Part shown: positions 1,904 through 7,399 of the stretch, one piece after another | How the letters are laid out: the number at the start of each line of letters is the position of its first letter | Position numbering within the stretch: the first letter of the stretch is position 1 | Virus record (IMG/VR): IMGVR_UViG_3300032006_000082 | Coordinates: 1 to 24,042 of that record | Length of the DNA: 24,042 nucleotides | Source of the DNA: a virus | Strand: one strand, 5' to 3' | Translations under genes and position numbers: made by a program | Notes under the pieces: model-generated | What the model saw: only the letters and a program-made list of their open reading frames with translations | What the model was told of the DNA's origin: nothing | Database searches by the model: none

Positions 1904-1911
1904 AACATTAC

Positions 1912-1922
1912 TTAAGGTCAAT
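1912..1922 (+). repeat. left copy of 11-bp direct repeat TTAAGGTCAAT
   Basis: TTAAGGTCAAT is identical at 1912-1922 and 2354-2364, and the match stops after 11 bases on both sides. The copies bracket the GC-rich structured block. This copy lies only 9 bases before the ATG of the leftward gene, too close to act as a -35 box for it, which favours a boundary or duplication scar over a promoter element. Confidence 0.6.
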
Positions 1923-1944
1923 AAAAGATGGCTTACAGCCATCT
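1920..1944 (-). terminator. intrinsic terminator, leftward
   Basis: Read on the minus strand, AGATGGC-TGTAA-GCCATCT forms a 7-bp stem with a 5-base loop and is followed by TTTATT. The plus strand has no T-run on its side, so the direction is clear. It would end a transcript coming from the structured block before the start of the leftward gene at 1903. Confidence 0.55.
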
Positions 1945-2335
1945 GAAACTTCGCTACGCTCGTTTCTATTTCTAACTTACGCACTGTAAATTAAAATTTT
2001 GACGCAGTGTGCGTCCTATGTGGCAGATGAGCAGTCACAATACGGCTATTTCTAGCCGTACTGACTTAAACCCATGTGGCGAGTTCACAGTCACCATACA
2101 TCGTTGCCGTAGCCGGGCGGTTGTGCTGTACCCGTTAACTCATACTTCCAACGCGAGCCTATTATGCCTTTGTATGATAATTCATAATAAACTTAAGGTT
2201 GCTTTTTCTCAGAGCCTTATCGTTTTTGCTGTTTGCATCAAGGGATTCACCTGTCGCTTGTTAGCCGCATTTCCCTGCTCACTGGTAGAGATGCTATGTT
2301 TGCCTGATTGAAATTGTGGTGTGCCTATCGCATAT
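1923..2335 (-). ncRNA. candidate structured non-coding RNA, about 400 nt, family unknown
   Basis: Between two divergent AT-rich genes this stretch rises to 47-58% G+C in 60-base counts around 2041-2160, against about 23% at 2341-2400. Perfect stems visible include TACGGCTA closed by a GAAA tetraloop on the minus strand (2041-2060), GACGCA/TGCGTC (2001-2015), TGACT/AGTCA (2062-2093, with an inner 6-bp stem), CGTTG/CAACG (2102-2153), TATTATG/CATAATA (2160-2189), GAAAC/GTTTC (1945-1966) and a long-range 7-bp pair, TGAGCAG 2028-2034 with CTGCTCA 2275-2281. A minus-strand promoter-like element precedes it and a minus-strand terminator follows it. An open frame of 100 codons on the plus strand (2009-2311) looks like a by-product. 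I could not fit it to tRNA, tmRNA, RNase P or a group I intron core. Confidence 0.6.
2015..2094 (-). repeat. two imperfect repeats with a 56-bp period inside the structured block
   Basis: On the plus strand CCTATGTGGC-N7-CAGTCAC (2015-2038) recurs as CCCATGTGGC-N7-CAGTCAC (2071-2094) with identical spacing. Both are followed by ATAC and, a little later, GCCGTA. The seven-base inserts differ completely. This suggests two copies of a structural module within the RNA. Confidence 0.65.
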
Positions 2336-2336
2336 G

Positions 2337-2363
2337 TTTATACTAGTTTTATTTTAAGGTCAA
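2337..2363 (-). promoter_or_regulatory. sigma70-like promoter reading into the structured RNA
   Basis: On the minus strand TTGACC (2358-2363) is followed after 15 bases by TATAAA (2337-2342). The boxes are good but the spacer is two bases short of ideal. Transcription would start near 2330 and run through the GC-rich block to the terminator at 1920-1944. Confidence 0.4.
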
Positions 2364-2364
2364 T
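2354..2364 (+). repeat. right copy of 11-bp direct repeat TTAAGGTCAAT
   Basis: It is identical to 1912-1922. This copy contains the -35 box of the minus-strand promoter and lies 16 bases before the ATG of the GIY-YIG gene. Removing one copy plus the block between would leave about 46 bases between two divergent genes, a normal spacing for this phage. Confidence 0.6.
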
Positions 2365-2380
2365 CTTTTTGGATTTAAAT

Positions 2381-2806
2381 ATGGTTATGCATTGGTTATA
2401 TCAAGGAAAAGACGTAAACGAACTGCCAGAAGACTGTGTTGGCTTTGTATATCAAATAACAAATACAACTAATGGTAGGATGTATATTGGTAAAAAATTA
2501 GCAAAGTTTAAAAGATCACGTAGACCTTTAAAAGGACGTAAAAATAAACGTAGGTATAAGGTTGATAGTGATTGGCAAGACTATTATGGATCTAGTGACG
2601 AACTTACTATAGATATTAAAAAACTAGGTAAAGAATATTTTAAAAGAGAAATACTTTTTTACTGTAATTCCAAAGCAGAGATGTCATATGTAGAAGCACG
2701 AGAGCAGTTTGCTCGTAAAGTGTTAGAATCTAATGATTATTATAATGGCCATATCCGTGTACGAGTGCATGGCAAAGGTATCTTAAAAGAAAAAGCCTCC
2801 ACTTAA
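2381..2806 (+). CDS. GIY-YIG endonuclease-like protein
   Basis: From the ATG at 2381 the protein has 141 residues; GGA at 2371-2373 can serve as ribosome-binding site. Extending to the GTG at 2321 adds an unrelated 20-residue stretch that runs into the structured block. Residues near 20-38 read GFVYQITNTTNGRMYIGKK, the GIY-YIG nuclease signature with the first motif as FVYQI and the second as MYIGK. Downstream come a very basic Lys/Arg-rich segment, W..YYGSS, G..YFKREIL and a conserved-looking Glu near YVEARE. Such free-standing nucleases in T4-like phages are often homing endonucleases (Seg type); a plain phage nuclease is the alternative. It sits directly beside the structured RNA block. 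The stop codon lies in the loop of the terminator. Confidence 0.8.
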   Translation: MVMHWLYQGKDVNELPEDCVGFVYQITNTTNGRMYIGKKLAKFKRSRRPLKGRKNKRRYKVDSDWQDYYGSSDELTIDIKKLGKEYFKREILFYCNSKAEMSYVEAREQFARKVLESNDYYNGHIRVRVHGKGILKEKAST

Positions 2807-2847: not shown

Positions 2848-3039
2848 TTACGCCGCAGTTTTTGCCGCGTTTTTAGCCTCTTGAATTTCTTTTCTTCTTG
2901 CTTTGATCAATTTGCTAAGATTCGCAAGTGCTTTTCTGGCTCTAGTTGCAGAAGCCTTAACACCCTTCTCTGTGAACTTGCCGTTCTCTTCAGAGTAGTT
3001 CTGAATCTCAGTCATGATCTGTTCATGTGTTTGTGACAT
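2848..3039 (-). CDS. small basic histone H1/Hc1-like protein
   Basis: This 63-residue protein is Lys/Arg/Ala-rich and helical. Residues 22-55 run FTEKGVKASATRARKAL then LSKLIKARRKEIQEAK. That pattern (KGxKAaxtRxRKxLxxLxKLxKxxRkEIqexK) is typical of short bacterial and phage proteins related to chlamydial Hc1. These are thought to bind DNA and affect compaction, so the role inferred here is nucleoid or phage-DNA association. A strong ribosome-binding site, AAGGAAGG, precedes the ATG. The gene is transcribed leftward into the bidirectional terminator at 2792-2822 and is divergent from the oxygenase gene. Confidence 0.75.
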   Translation of the reverse strand: MSQTHEQIMTEIQNYSEENGKFTEKGVKASATRARKALANLSKLIKARRKEIQEAKNAAKTAA

Positions 3040-3628: not shown

Positions 3629-3639
3629 TATCGTTATAC
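3619..3639. terminator. weak hairpin between convergent genes
   Basis: GTATAA (3619-3624) and TTATAC (3634-3639) can pair across 9 bases, spanning the stop codons of the oxygenase gene and gp46. The stem is AT-rich and lacks a proper T-run, so termination here is only possible. Confidence 0.25.
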
Positions 3640-5409
3640 TATTATCTCAACATCATTAGCATAGTTTGTAAATCCATTTTCTTTTACAACTTTTAGTACT
3701 GAATTTACTCTACTGATCAACTCATCTTTGTGAGAAATAAGGAAAATGTTCTTTTGTTGCGTCCTACTCATGTCTTTTAGTACTGCCATAGAACTCTCAA
3801 CACCTGATATATCCATACCAGCGTCTACCAACTCATCAATAAACAACAAGTTGATCTGTTGATAAAGTGATTCCCATACATCTCTAAATGCCCAACTTAA
3901 ACTTAATATTAACCTGTTTCTTTCACCTCTACTTAAATTATCAAAGTCTAACTCTCGGCCTAGTTCTTCAATAGTAACTGTTAAGTCTGATTGGAATGTA
4001 ACTGTGTGTGGCAATTTAACTTTGCTTAAGAAAAATGCTAAACGTTGATTTAAGTACGTTAAGTTTTGTTCAATAATTCTTGTTCTTATAAAAGAATCTT
4101 TTGCTGTTAATAATTTGTATAAAAACTCTTGGTGTTTATACAAATCTTCCATTTCATTTACTTTAGTATAATCAATTTTTTGTATTGCTGTTTTAGTTAA
4201 TTCTTCTATTTGTTCAGCATATGGATCTTCTTTTTTCTCTGTTTGTTCTAATTGACGTTTTAAGTCTTTTAAAGAACCTTTATGATTGTATGCTTCATCC
4301 ATTGAGTCATAATACGTATCTGGAGTATTACCTAAATCACCAATTACATCTATATCCTGTTGTATTTTTGCAAGATCATTTTTTAATTTTTCAACATCTG
4401 CTTTACTTTCAGTTAAAGTAATTGTTAGTTTACTGGTTAATTGTTTATGTTTTTCGTCATGTAAAGTTTGTTCACAAGTAGGACATTTGGCTTGTTGTGC
4501 ATATTCTAAATCGTTTTCAGTTTTAGTTACATTTGCTTCTGCTTTAGTAAAACTATCTTCGTGATATGCTTTTTCTTTGTTCAAACTTAATAGTTTTAAA
4601 TAATCTTCATTATGTTTTTGTAGTTTTTTGTGTGTATCAAGTTCTGCTTTAATGTCAACTTTTTCTAATTCGGCTATTGCCTCTTCAAATTTTGTAGAAT
4701 CTTCTTCTTTTTGTGTTTGCCATGCACTTGATCTTATTTTTAAACTTTCAATTGATTCTTGTATTTTTTCATTTGCTGACATTCTAGAATCAATTTTCAT
4801 TTTTTCTTCCATTAATTCTGTTTTAGTTGCTTTCATTTTTTCTTTAAGCAAGTCTGCTTTTTGAGATAATAATGTTATACCAAGCAACTGCTCAATAATT
4901 TCTCTTTGTTCTGCTTGTTTAGTTGCTAAAAATGGTTGTGTGTATGTATTCAGTGCAACTATGTTTTTAAACATAGCAAGAGTCATACCAACTAGTTTAT
5001 TAATTTCTTGTTGTGTTTCTTTGTTTTCGCCTTGTGCTTCGTTGCTGTCTGTATTTTGTTCAATGTTGTTTGCATAGAATTTAAAAATGCCAGGTTTTCT
5101 ACCTCTTTCAATAGTGTAATCAACATTATTTTTTGTAAACTTAACACCCACTAACATTCCTTTTTCATTTGTTTTGTTTACTAGATTGTCTCTTCTAATA
5201 TTTGTTAATGCTTCACCAAAAAATACATAAGATAATGCATTAATAATAGTTGTCTTACCAGTACCATTTCTAGCACCAGCGTCATCTCCACCTAGATCTA
5301 AATTTTCTCCAATAACCAGTACTAACTTTTTATTAGCAAAGTTTATACTTTGTGTAGCATTACCTACACTCATAAAGTTTTTAACTGTAAGTTCTTTAAT
5401 TGTTAACAT
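3634..5409 (-). CDS. gp46: gp46 recombination endonuclease subunit (Rad50/SbcC-like)
   Basis: This 591-residue ATPase is the partner of gp47 in the T4 Mre11-Rad50-type complex, which resects DNA ends and feeds recombination-dependent replication. Domains in order: N-terminal ABC half with Walker A GARNGTGKTT (about 45-54), a long charged coiled coil (about 185-305), the zinc hook CPTC (309-312), a returning coiled coil (about 330-450), ABC signature LSRGERNR (492-499), Walker B LLFIDEL (521-527) and an H-loop SH at 559-560. All ATPase elements are intact and the length is near that of T4 gp46 (about 560). The start overlaps the end of gp47 by 14 bases, so the pair is translationally coupled. 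Confidence 0.95.
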   Translation of the reverse strand: MLTIKELTVKNFMSVGNATQSINFANKKLVLVIGENLDLGGDDAGARNGTGKTTIINALSYVFFGEALTNIRRDNLVNKTNEKGMLVGVKFTKNNVDYTIERGRKPGIFKFYANNIEQNTDSNEAQGENKETQQEINKLVGMTLAMFKNIVALNTYTQPFLATKQAEQREIIEQLLGITLLSQKADLLKEKMKATKTELMEEKMKIDSRMSANEKIQESIESLKIRSSAWQTQKEEDSTKFEEAIAELEKVDIKAELDTHKKLQKHNEDYLKLLSLNKEKAYHEDSFTKAEANVTKTENDLEYAQQAKCPTCEQTLHDEKHKQLTSKLTITLTESKADVEKLKNDLAKIQQDIDVIGDLGNTPDTYYDSMDEAYNHKGSLKDLKRQLEQTEKKEDPYAEQIEELTKTAIQKIDYTKVNEMEDLYKHQEFLYKLLTAKDSFIRTRIIEQNLTYLNQRLAFFLSKVKLPHTVTFQSDLTVTIEELGRELDFDNLSRGERNRLILSLSWAFRDVWESLYQQINLLFIDELVDAGMDISGVESSMAVLKDMSRTQQKNIFLISHKDELISRVNSVLKVVKENGFTNYANDVEIIV

Positions 5410-6415
5410 CTAAATCGTTGTAAATTGCTGTTAATATGTTTTTGTCATATGTTTCAGAATCTACACCTTGTAATTGTTTAATAACAATTTGATCAACACT
5501 ATCAAATTTTTGCACTTCAACTGTAGGCTGTTGTGCTTGATCAAGTTGTTCTGGTATTAGTTGTAATTCTCTTAATTGATATTTGTCAATAAATGTTTCT
5601 CTTATAAAGTTTGCTTCTTCATAAGATATTTTAATATCTAAAGTAACTCTAGTATACATTTTTGGTTTTAAAAACTTTTCTGGATCTTCTAACAGTTCAC
5701 TTATTTTAATAGTTCTATATCTTGGCATATCTGGCCAATTAATATATTTTGGTTGTCCACCATATTCTAATATCATCATACCACGTTCGTCATCCCAAGC
5801 GTCTGCGTAGTTGTGTGGAAATGCATTACCCATATAAGTTACATTTGCGTTTTGTTGTCTTTTATGAAAGTGTCCTGAAAATACCATTCCACAATTTGCA
5901 AAGTGTTCTGTTTTAATAGTTCCAACATCCGGCATATCTACCATTGCGTTCATTTTAAAATATGGAAGTTCAAAATGTCCAAACACATATTTTTGTGTCA
6001 TTTTTTCAATAACTTTCCATTCATCACCAACTACCCATGGAATAATTGCAACATCATCTTCAATAATCCAATCATTAACAAGATGTATGTTTGGAATATT
6101 TCTAATATATTCCATTGAATTAATTTCTCTTTTTTCTCTGTAAAATAAATCGTGATTACCCATTATTACATAAACTTTTTCAAACGCCGCACTTAATCTT
6201 TCCATATTAGAAACTGTATAGTTCATTGTGGAAACGTTAGTTGCAGATCTTTGGTGGTGCCAATCGCCTAGGAATATACAAGTTTCACAACCGTGTGCTT
6301 TGGCTTGTTCAATAAACCAATATATAAATGATTCGCAATCATCGTTGTGTATTCTAGAATTACCTTTTAGTCCAAAGTGTATATCTGTAAAACAAGCAAC
6401 TTTTTTAAAAAACAT
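5396..6415 (-). CDS. gp47: gp47 recombination nuclease subunit (Mre11/SbcD-like)
   Basis: This 339-residue calcineurin-like phosphoesterase is the nuclease half of the gp46/gp47 complex. Metal-binding motifs are complete: DIHFG (11-15), GDWHHQR (50-56), MGNHD (85-89), GHFE (146-149) and GHFHKR (181-186). The C-terminal third is the usual variable capping and partner-binding region. It lies 3 bases downstream of gp55 on the same strand and overlaps gp46 by 14 bases, giving the T4-like order 55-47-46. Confidence 0.95.
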   Translation of the reverse strand: MFFKKVACFTDIHFGLKGNSRIHNDDCESFIYWFIEQAKAHGCETCIFLGDWHHQRSATNVSTMNYTVSNMERLSAAFEKVYVIMGNHDLFYREKREINSMEYIRNIPNIHLVNDWIIEDDVAIIPWVVGDEWKVIEKMTQKYVFGHFELPYFKMNAMVDMPDVGTIKTEHFANCGMVFSGHFHKRQQNANVTYMGNAFPHNYADAWDDERGMMILEYGGQPKYINWPDMPRYRTIKISELLEDPEKFLKPKMYTRVTLDIKISYEEANFIRETFIDKYQLRELQLIPEQLDQAQQPTVEVQKFDSVDQIVIKQLQGVDSETYDKNILTAIYNDLDVNN

Positions 6416-6418
6416 ATT

Positions 6419-7399
6419 CTACCATTTCTTTTTAACAGGCGGTTTATGGCCAGTCATATCTAATTTTTTATAATTTACTTTTTCAAAATCCTCTGCATCT
6501 AGTTGACCAGTTTTTTTAAATTTTTTGTTTAATTTTGCAATACCGGTTTTATTAACATATGTTACTTCACCATGTGCAGTTTCCATTCTCTTTTTATAAG
6601 CAACAGTGTTTCTATCATTTTCACCTTGTCTAGTAAAAGAAGGATTCATATGATTCATTTCTAATAAATCATCTCTAATAGATTGATTTTTCTTTTCAAT
6701 GTTTAAAATTCTTGTGAAACTATTAGTAATTGCCGCAGTATAATATGCAAAAGGATTTTCAGATTTACTTTCATCAAACTGCAAACCAATTTGTGATAGT
6801 TGCATTAATGCTTGTGACTGCATTTCATCATTGTAAGTATAACCTCTCCAGTTTGATCTTGTTCCGTATCTTTCACAAAGTTTCATAAACATCATTGCTA
6901 AACTATTTGTAATTTTTCCATGAGTACAAGAGAAATAGCCATTGCCCATTCCACCAATCCAATGTGATTTTCCTATAACCTTTGCTTTACCTTTTTTGTC
7001 CAACCTATAATGTTGGAAAGGCGGAAAGTTTACTTTACTGTGATGATCCGCTACACTTTTTGGATTTTTCTTTCTATCAGCATCCGTTGGAATATGTTCG
7101 TAAGTCATTACTCGAAATACTAAATCAGTTTTATCAATTTTTCTTGTAGAAACCGAGTAGTCTGAGAGTTTTATTTTTTTTAATCCAGATTCTTTTGCGG
7201 TTTCCCATGCTTCTTGTGTTAATCTTTTTGCTTTTGCTTTTCTGGCTTTTGCTATTGCTGAAGGATTAATTTTTTTAAGACTAGGTACTATGATATCATA
7301 CTGTGAGTCTTCTGTACTAACATATGAGCAATATGTATTTTTGCTGGCGTGTATTTGAGCCAATAGATCCCGGTTGTTTAAGTATTTCACTCGCTTCAT
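6419..7399 (-). CDS. gp55: gp55 late-transcription sigma factor, enlarged
   Basis: T4 gp55 is a small sigma-like factor that directs host RNA polymerase to TATAAATA late promoters with gp33 and gp45. Here the N-terminus KYLNNRDLLAQI (5-16) resembles T4 gp55 NYVNNKELLQAI. The sigma region-2-like part lies at about 163-245: LAMMFMKLCERYG, WRGYTYNDEMQSQAL, then FDESKSENPFAYYTAAITNSF. It corresponds to T4's GYTQSWKQEMI...FDETKYKNPHAY. The protein has 326 residues against about 185 in T4. The excess is a basic insert at about 35-160, with HYRLDKKGKAKVIGKSHWIGG, and a longer Lys-rich tail. Two exact late promoters in the window fit its role. Confidence 0.85.
   Translation of the reverse strand: MKRVKYLNNRDLLAQIHASKNTYCSYVSTEDSQYDIIVPSLKKINPSAIAKARKAKAKRLTQEAWETAKESGLKKIKLSDYSVSTRKIDKTDLVFRVMTYEHIPTDADRKKNPKSVADHHSKVNFPPFQHYRLDKKGKAKVIGKSHWIGGMGNGYFSCTHGKITNSLAMMFMKLCERYGTRSNWRGYTYNDEMQSQALMQLSQIGLQFDESKSENPFAYYTAAITNSFTRILNIEKKNQSIRDDLLEMNHMNPSFTRQGENDRNTVAYKKRMETAHGEVTYVNKTGIAKLNKKFKKTGQLDAEDFEKVNYKKLDMTGHKPPVKKKW

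Follow-up and report, generated by a model that had tools for sequence, protein, structure and literature searches.

Does the highly foldable block at positions 1904-2380 of this phage DNA encode a protein, a catalogued RNA or neither, and what might it do for the phages that carry it? The window (the whole stretch of DNA analysed, 24,042 nucleotides) is part of the genome of a T4-like marine phage, in which profile searches identify gp46 (3637-5409), gp47 (5399-6415) and the late sigma factor gp55 (6422-7399), while a segE-like GIY-YIG gene (2381-2803, plus strand; PF19835, E 7e-36) adjoins the block. The initial annotation had proposed a structured minus-strand RNA gene of about 400 nt, a proposal that is borne out by conservation, covariation, an excess of G-U pairs and the lack of a conserved open reading frame (ORF). 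We lean towards reading 1920-2363 (minus strand) as a gene in its own right, whose product would be a large, structured non-coding RNA belonging to a new class; the structure and the independence of this RNA are well supported.

Some observations on the neighbouring genes deserve mention in their own right. The SegE-like protein falls in phrog_447, which bears the name 'NAD synthetase'. Many cyanophage records have taken over this name, which looks wrong, since Pfam gives a SegE GIY-YIG domain. The minus-strand ORF directly downstream of the RNA (1136-1903, 256 aa) is kept in many group A loci and has no Pfam or PHROG match. A 62-aa protein (2848-3036, minus strand) matches the histone H1-like Hc1 (PF07432, E 2e-12).

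Scanning IMG/VR with the SegE protein yielded 437 relatives, and among the best 80 of these 437 loci every one (80/80) holds a DNA-similar copy of the block beside segE. The alignment of 64 copies retains a TTGAC/TATA pair, a terminal hairpin with a T-rich run, and about 405 nt in between; the RNA is expected to run from about 2330 down to 1921 on the minus strand (Table 1). The promoter is of a sigma-70-like type, with the variant TTGACA-17-TATATA in relatives, and both the promoter element and the stem with its T-rich tail that had been claimed for this strand were found and are conserved. The block is also richer in G+C than its surroundings, as had been noted, but the contrast is smaller than the claimed rise from about 23% to 47-58%: G+C amounts to 41% across 1904-2380 and 53% across 2009-2160; the 500-bp flanks have 34% each, and the window as a whole has 32%.

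Table 1. Features of the predicted RNA gene, in the order of transcription (positions in the window).
Feature	Positions	Strand	Sequence and conservation
Whole RNA gene (promoter, RNA, terminator)	1920-2363	-	Kept in 64 copies of <95% identity
-35 box	2358-2363	-	TTGACC; TTGAC part conserved among relatives
-10 box	2337-2342	-	TATAAA; 15-nt spacer from -35 box
P1 domain	2234-2294	-	Helices GCATC/GATGC and GGGAA/..TCCC; compensatory pairs; pair 103-136 E<0.05
P2 hairpin	2195-2218	-	Internal loop GGCUC...AACC; 100% paired across groups A-D; both sides changed in 3/4 pairs
P3 long hairpin	2156-2194	-	Strongest covariation; 12/12 pairs changed on both sides
GCGUUG	2149-2154	-	Invariant
P5 core hairpin	2114-2134	-	Stem co-varies; 13-nt loop UACAGCACAACCG at 2118-2130
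P6 hairpin	2102-2114	-	Loop switches between UNCG and GNRA tetraloops among relatives
Repeat 1	2075-2095	-	GGUGACUGUGAACUCGCCACA; co-varies with repeat 2
P7 hairpin	2041-2060	-	UACGGCUA-GAAA-UAGCCGUA (8-bp stem, also TACGGCTA-GAAA-TAGCCGTA); 11 pairs nearly all formed across the 64 copies; E<0.05 for pair 323-336
Repeat 2	2019-2039	-	UGUGACUGCUCAUCUGCCACA; co-varies with repeat 1
P8 hairpin	1945-1966	-	GAAAC-GAGCGUAGCGAA-GUUUC; compensatory changes
Intrinsic terminator	1920-1944	-	AGAUGGCU-GUA-AGCCAUCUUUUAUU hairpin, then TTTTATT; compensatory changes GGC/GCC, GAC/GUC, GGU/ACC

How stably the window copy folds by itself would not suffice to establish a structured RNA, because the z-score of its folding energy is only moderate on both strands (-2.30 on the minus and -2.55 on the plus strand). 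The comparison of relatives carries the argument. RNAalifold was run on 64 full-length copies, all below 95% identity, and covariation was scored with an in-house, phylogeny-aware procedure (a G-test with APC correction and 60 nulls, in which the substitutions of each branch are dealt out afresh over the columns; it is not R-scape). Seven pairs among about 100,000 reached E<0.05, six of them base pairs in predicted helices and the seventh a link between the equivalent position of two direct repeats, which is not base paired. The core alignment (40 sequences from the four divergent groups A-D) points the same way, with 90.5% of helix cells able to pair versus 71.9% in shuffled alignments and a covariation score of 0.527 versus 0.173. 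Compensatory base changes beyond chance, which the initial annotation had proposed to look for in homologous phage loci, were thus found, and the stems that it had listed are present, including the GAAA-capped 8-bp stem of the minus strand. Its long-range 7-bp pair (2028-2034 with 2275-2281) exists in the window, but up to 33 of the 64 relatives disrupt it and no compensatory change is seen, and we reject it as a conserved feature. Read on the minus strand, the helices hold 272 G-U against 34 A-C cells, and it is this excess that assigns the RNA to the minus strand. The two repeats are near-identical GUGACU..CCACA elements on either side of P7, and their positions 301-356 and 307-362 change in concert without base pairing, as would be expected for two equal, putative binding sites.

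Codon-like conservation, by contrast, was sought and is absent: a 100-aa ORF on the plus strand is open in three of the 64 relatives and broken in the other 61. Comparison of the relatives shows a gene at the level of RNA, with a conserved predicted secondary structure and promoter and terminator signals and without a conserved ORF. Nor does the block carry a catalogued name. A cmscan against Rfam 15 (4,227 families) gave no match up to E 10, and 20 further member loci and records, jumbo-phage relatives included, gave none at the gathering threshold. Neither the window nor any of 20 member loci has a tRNA or tmRNA gene according to ARAGORN, and with respect to group I and II introns there is no Rfam match, the flanking genes are intact and unrelated, and no gene is interrupted; the earlier exclusion by eye of tRNA, tmRNA and group I intron is upheld. 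No description was found in the open literature of PubMed Central, where preprints and subscription papers are thinly covered and an earlier mention is possible. The accessible parts of the paper on phage CBB report promoters and terminal repeats and yielded no such RNA. Judged from these searches, the class is new and uncatalogued, with GOLLD and ROOL as precedents for large phage RNAs of unknown function.

The hallmark of the family is a compact core, in which GCGUUG is followed by the P5 hairpin with the loop UAC[A/C]GCACAACCG, invariant except for the A/C alternation, on a stem that takes the forms CGGG/CCCG, AAGGGG/CCCCUU, CGAG/CUCG, GGGUG/CACCC, AAAUCG/CGAUUU or AAAAGG/CCUUUU. The GUUG of the first element could form four base pairs with the CAAC of the loop in 39 of 39 sequences. 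Such a pseudoknot is plausible, and it is unproven because both partners are invariant. We also considered the core loop as an rRNA mimic or antisense, since it resembles 16S rRNA positions 1392-1404 (GUACACACCGCCC), and rejected this idea: the longest shared word (7) and the longest complementary word (8) are the same as for shuffled sequences, so neither the resemblance of the core to E. coli rRNA nor its complementarity exceeds chance.

A covariance model of the core (R1, comprising P2, P3, GCGUUG and P5) was built from 40 sequences; it recovers the window at 2112-2224 on the minus strand (E 1.9e-24, the window being one of the 40 building sequences) and scores members down to 57 bits. Scanning for the core motif gave at least 120 stretches. 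In T4-like phages (groups A-D) the RNA is inherited at one slot: gp47, gp46, then either a small gene or a resolvase, and often segE precede it, and gp51/gp26-like baseplate genes come next. Further carriers are contigs that encode a T7-type terminase large subunit (L220, L226) and a phage contig of 330 kb (L254). Which gene follows the RNA differs between loci, and in most divergent loci it is convergent, on the opposite strand. The locus had been described as encoding a phage RNA; a phage RNA it is, but its spread is much wider than the window implied, and it is kept by many marine phages and common in aquatic viromes, across types of phage that otherwise have little in common. Copy numbers in long IMG/VR contigs are lower bounds, since such contigs may be incomplete. 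Contigs of bacterial genomes held only five clear copies and four chance matches; the five copies sit in unrelated metagenome-assembled genomes, and the contigs that were read carry phage genes. Their binning (L203, L204, L207, L208 and L209, as Neomarinimicrobiota, Rickettsiales, Pacearchaeota, Betaproteobacteria and Pelagibacter) is likely contamination. By these searches the RNA is absent from Melnitz and HTVC008M, two marine myophages that either have a related segE or share the ecology, and it is therefore not universally required. No core was found in T4, P-SSM2, PA5oct-type phages, Phosso, Vibrio 2.275.O or Atu_ph07, and the DNA of groups A-D shows only chance similarity to INPHARED.

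The nearest annotated gp47 proteins come from jumbo phages, in several of which the matching slot contains a gap of 0.8-1.5 kb that is free of ORFs. A second conserved block (J) is found in 40 records of the 121Q, RaK2, GAP32, CBB, BF, Munch and XaC1 type, with two to five copies per genome, usually four or five, and two in K64-1 and RaK2. One copy usually occupies the same slot as the window family, with gp46 (in some cases together with EndoVII) on one side and gp51/gp26 on the other. Its core consists of GACCGUUG, about 15 nt, and a 5-bp stem with the loop AAAC[A/C]GnnCAACCCG, and the stem pairs in every distinct copy (27/27) and shows compensatory changes. Both RNAs have the core order CGUUG, 8-32 nt, stem, [A/U]AC[A/C]GnnCAACC(C)G, stem; the J loop has 15 nt versus 13 nt in the window RNA, and the remaining sequence is not alignable. 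The joint signature CGUUG-N8-32-AC[A/C]G-NN-CAACC has 36 matches in nine J-type genomes, all within J copies, against a background of one chance match (ICP1, inside the major head gene) and two matches to reversed controls in about 6 Mb. R1 does not reach the J RNAs, with no significant match in L286-L291. Common descent of the two RNAs is nonetheless likely, because they have the same order, the same A/C alternation and the same slot. The J RNA is a previously undescribed RNA of cultured 121Q/RaK2/GAP32-type jumbo phages, including phages of E. coli and Klebsiella. Within a genome its copies (L300-L329, L381-L409) share one orientation and are separated by tens of kb (in most genomes about 50-110 kb), with a spacing that looks even. 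Two other jumbo-phage gaps are of note. In Pseudomonas phage 30-3 (L212, 9021-10535), and in the same slot of PA5oct (L213), a 1.5-kb ORF-free gap beyond gp46 probably holds another large RNA; the gap in L212 has a TTGACA-TATAAT promoter, and its best R1 score is 8.2 bits, which is not significant. In Sinorhizobium phage Phosso (L286, 12465-13480), a hairpin-rich, ORF-free gap of 1 kb occupies the same slot and adjoins a Holliday junction resolvase, with no Rfam match and no core signature.

What, then, could such an RNA do? Clearly it is a viral RNA under selection. Host RNA polymerase would very probably make it as an independent transcript that acts in trans, because it has its own promoter, ends at a terminator, has no constant neighbour, is often followed by a gene on the opposite strand and occurs in different phage types. 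When folded, the RNA would display the P5 loop, which never changes and may form a pseudoknot with GCGUUG, and the two near-identical elements as putative binding sites. Their target would be a host component that is widely conserved (perhaps RNA polymerase, the ribosome or an RNA-binding protein) and that would be tied up or redirected during takeover. This mechanism is our tentative preference, short of probable; no binding partner or co-varying protein was found. The several copies in jumbo phages suggest a dose-dependent, stoichiometric role in which the amount matters. That T4-like, jumbo and T7-like phages have one ancient RNA class in common, performing a conserved host-takeover task through the invariant, putatively pseudoknotted loop, is a proposition that we regard as evenly poised. 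We would rank binding of a host component first, followed by a self-assembling particle, an origin transcript and a cis-acting element.

It is possible, if rather unlikely, that the RNA, needing no protein partner, self-assembles into a multimer or cage and accumulates late in infection, as GOLLD and ROOL form cages (PMC12286853). Like them it is large, ornate, phage-borne and possibly pseudoknotted, and its two matched elements could be intermolecular contacts; however, it matches neither family in sequence or structure, has half their length and lacks tRNA islands beside it. An improbable alternative is a replication-origin transcript, a primer or R-loop former like the origin transcripts of T4. 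The RNA adjoins the recombination genes gp46/gp47, the two to five jumbo-phage copies are co-oriented and tens of kb apart, and contig G001 has a GC-skew minimum near the RNA. GC skew follows the gene strand, though, and does not turn at other copies, so that an origin is not supported by skew; one-way gene blocks account for most of the co-orientation, and a primer needs neither a conserved loop nor a terminator. More doubtful still is a cis-acting leader, a riboswitch or a put-like polymerase-modifying antiterminator for the next gene: in many group A loci a same-strand gene directly follows (1136-1903 in the window), but a conserved terminator ends the RNA, and most divergent loci have a convergent or a different gene next to it. 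That the RNA is a mobile element or intron remnant tied to segE is a reading with very little left to it, already largely refuted by loci without segE. Although segE adjoins the RNA in most loci, and an exact 11-bp direct repeat (TTAAGGTCAAT, 1912-1922 and 2354-2364) brackets the gene, the RNA stands without segE in L106, L233, L235, L220 and L254, and there is neither an intron match in Rfam nor an interrupted gene. The repeat is not conserved in relatives and one copy is the -35 region, so we take its resemblance to a target-site duplication as coincidence. Practically negligible is the chance that the block is no functional RNA but a G+C-rich horizontally acquired or coding stretch: its composition is unlike the flanks and it holds the 100-aa frame, but that frame is rarely open, block lengths are mostly not multiples of three and compensatory changes are present.

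Compared with known systems, the RNA gene preferred here resembles group I introns and HEARO-type endonuclease-associated RNAs in adjoining a GIY-YIG gene in many loci, but it differs in having no Rfam match, no split gene and an inconstant link to segE. Phage ICP1 makes an abundant noncoding transcript of about 800 nt (PMC7567579). Like the RNA described here, this transcript comes from an ORF-free, phage-borne block, one twice as big, and R1 found nothing in ICP1. Should the invariant loop indeed bind a universal host component, a viral way to control that component would be revealed. Some phages that grow on laboratory E. coli carry relatives of the RNA that are open to experiment, and its task is directly testable by genetics. 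Large structured RNAs without known function are rare, and OLE, GOLLD and ROOL each raised a new question. GOLLD and ROOL are, like the RNA of the window, large ornate phage RNAs of unknown function, from which it differs in being shorter, in lying away from tRNAs and in matching no Rfam family.
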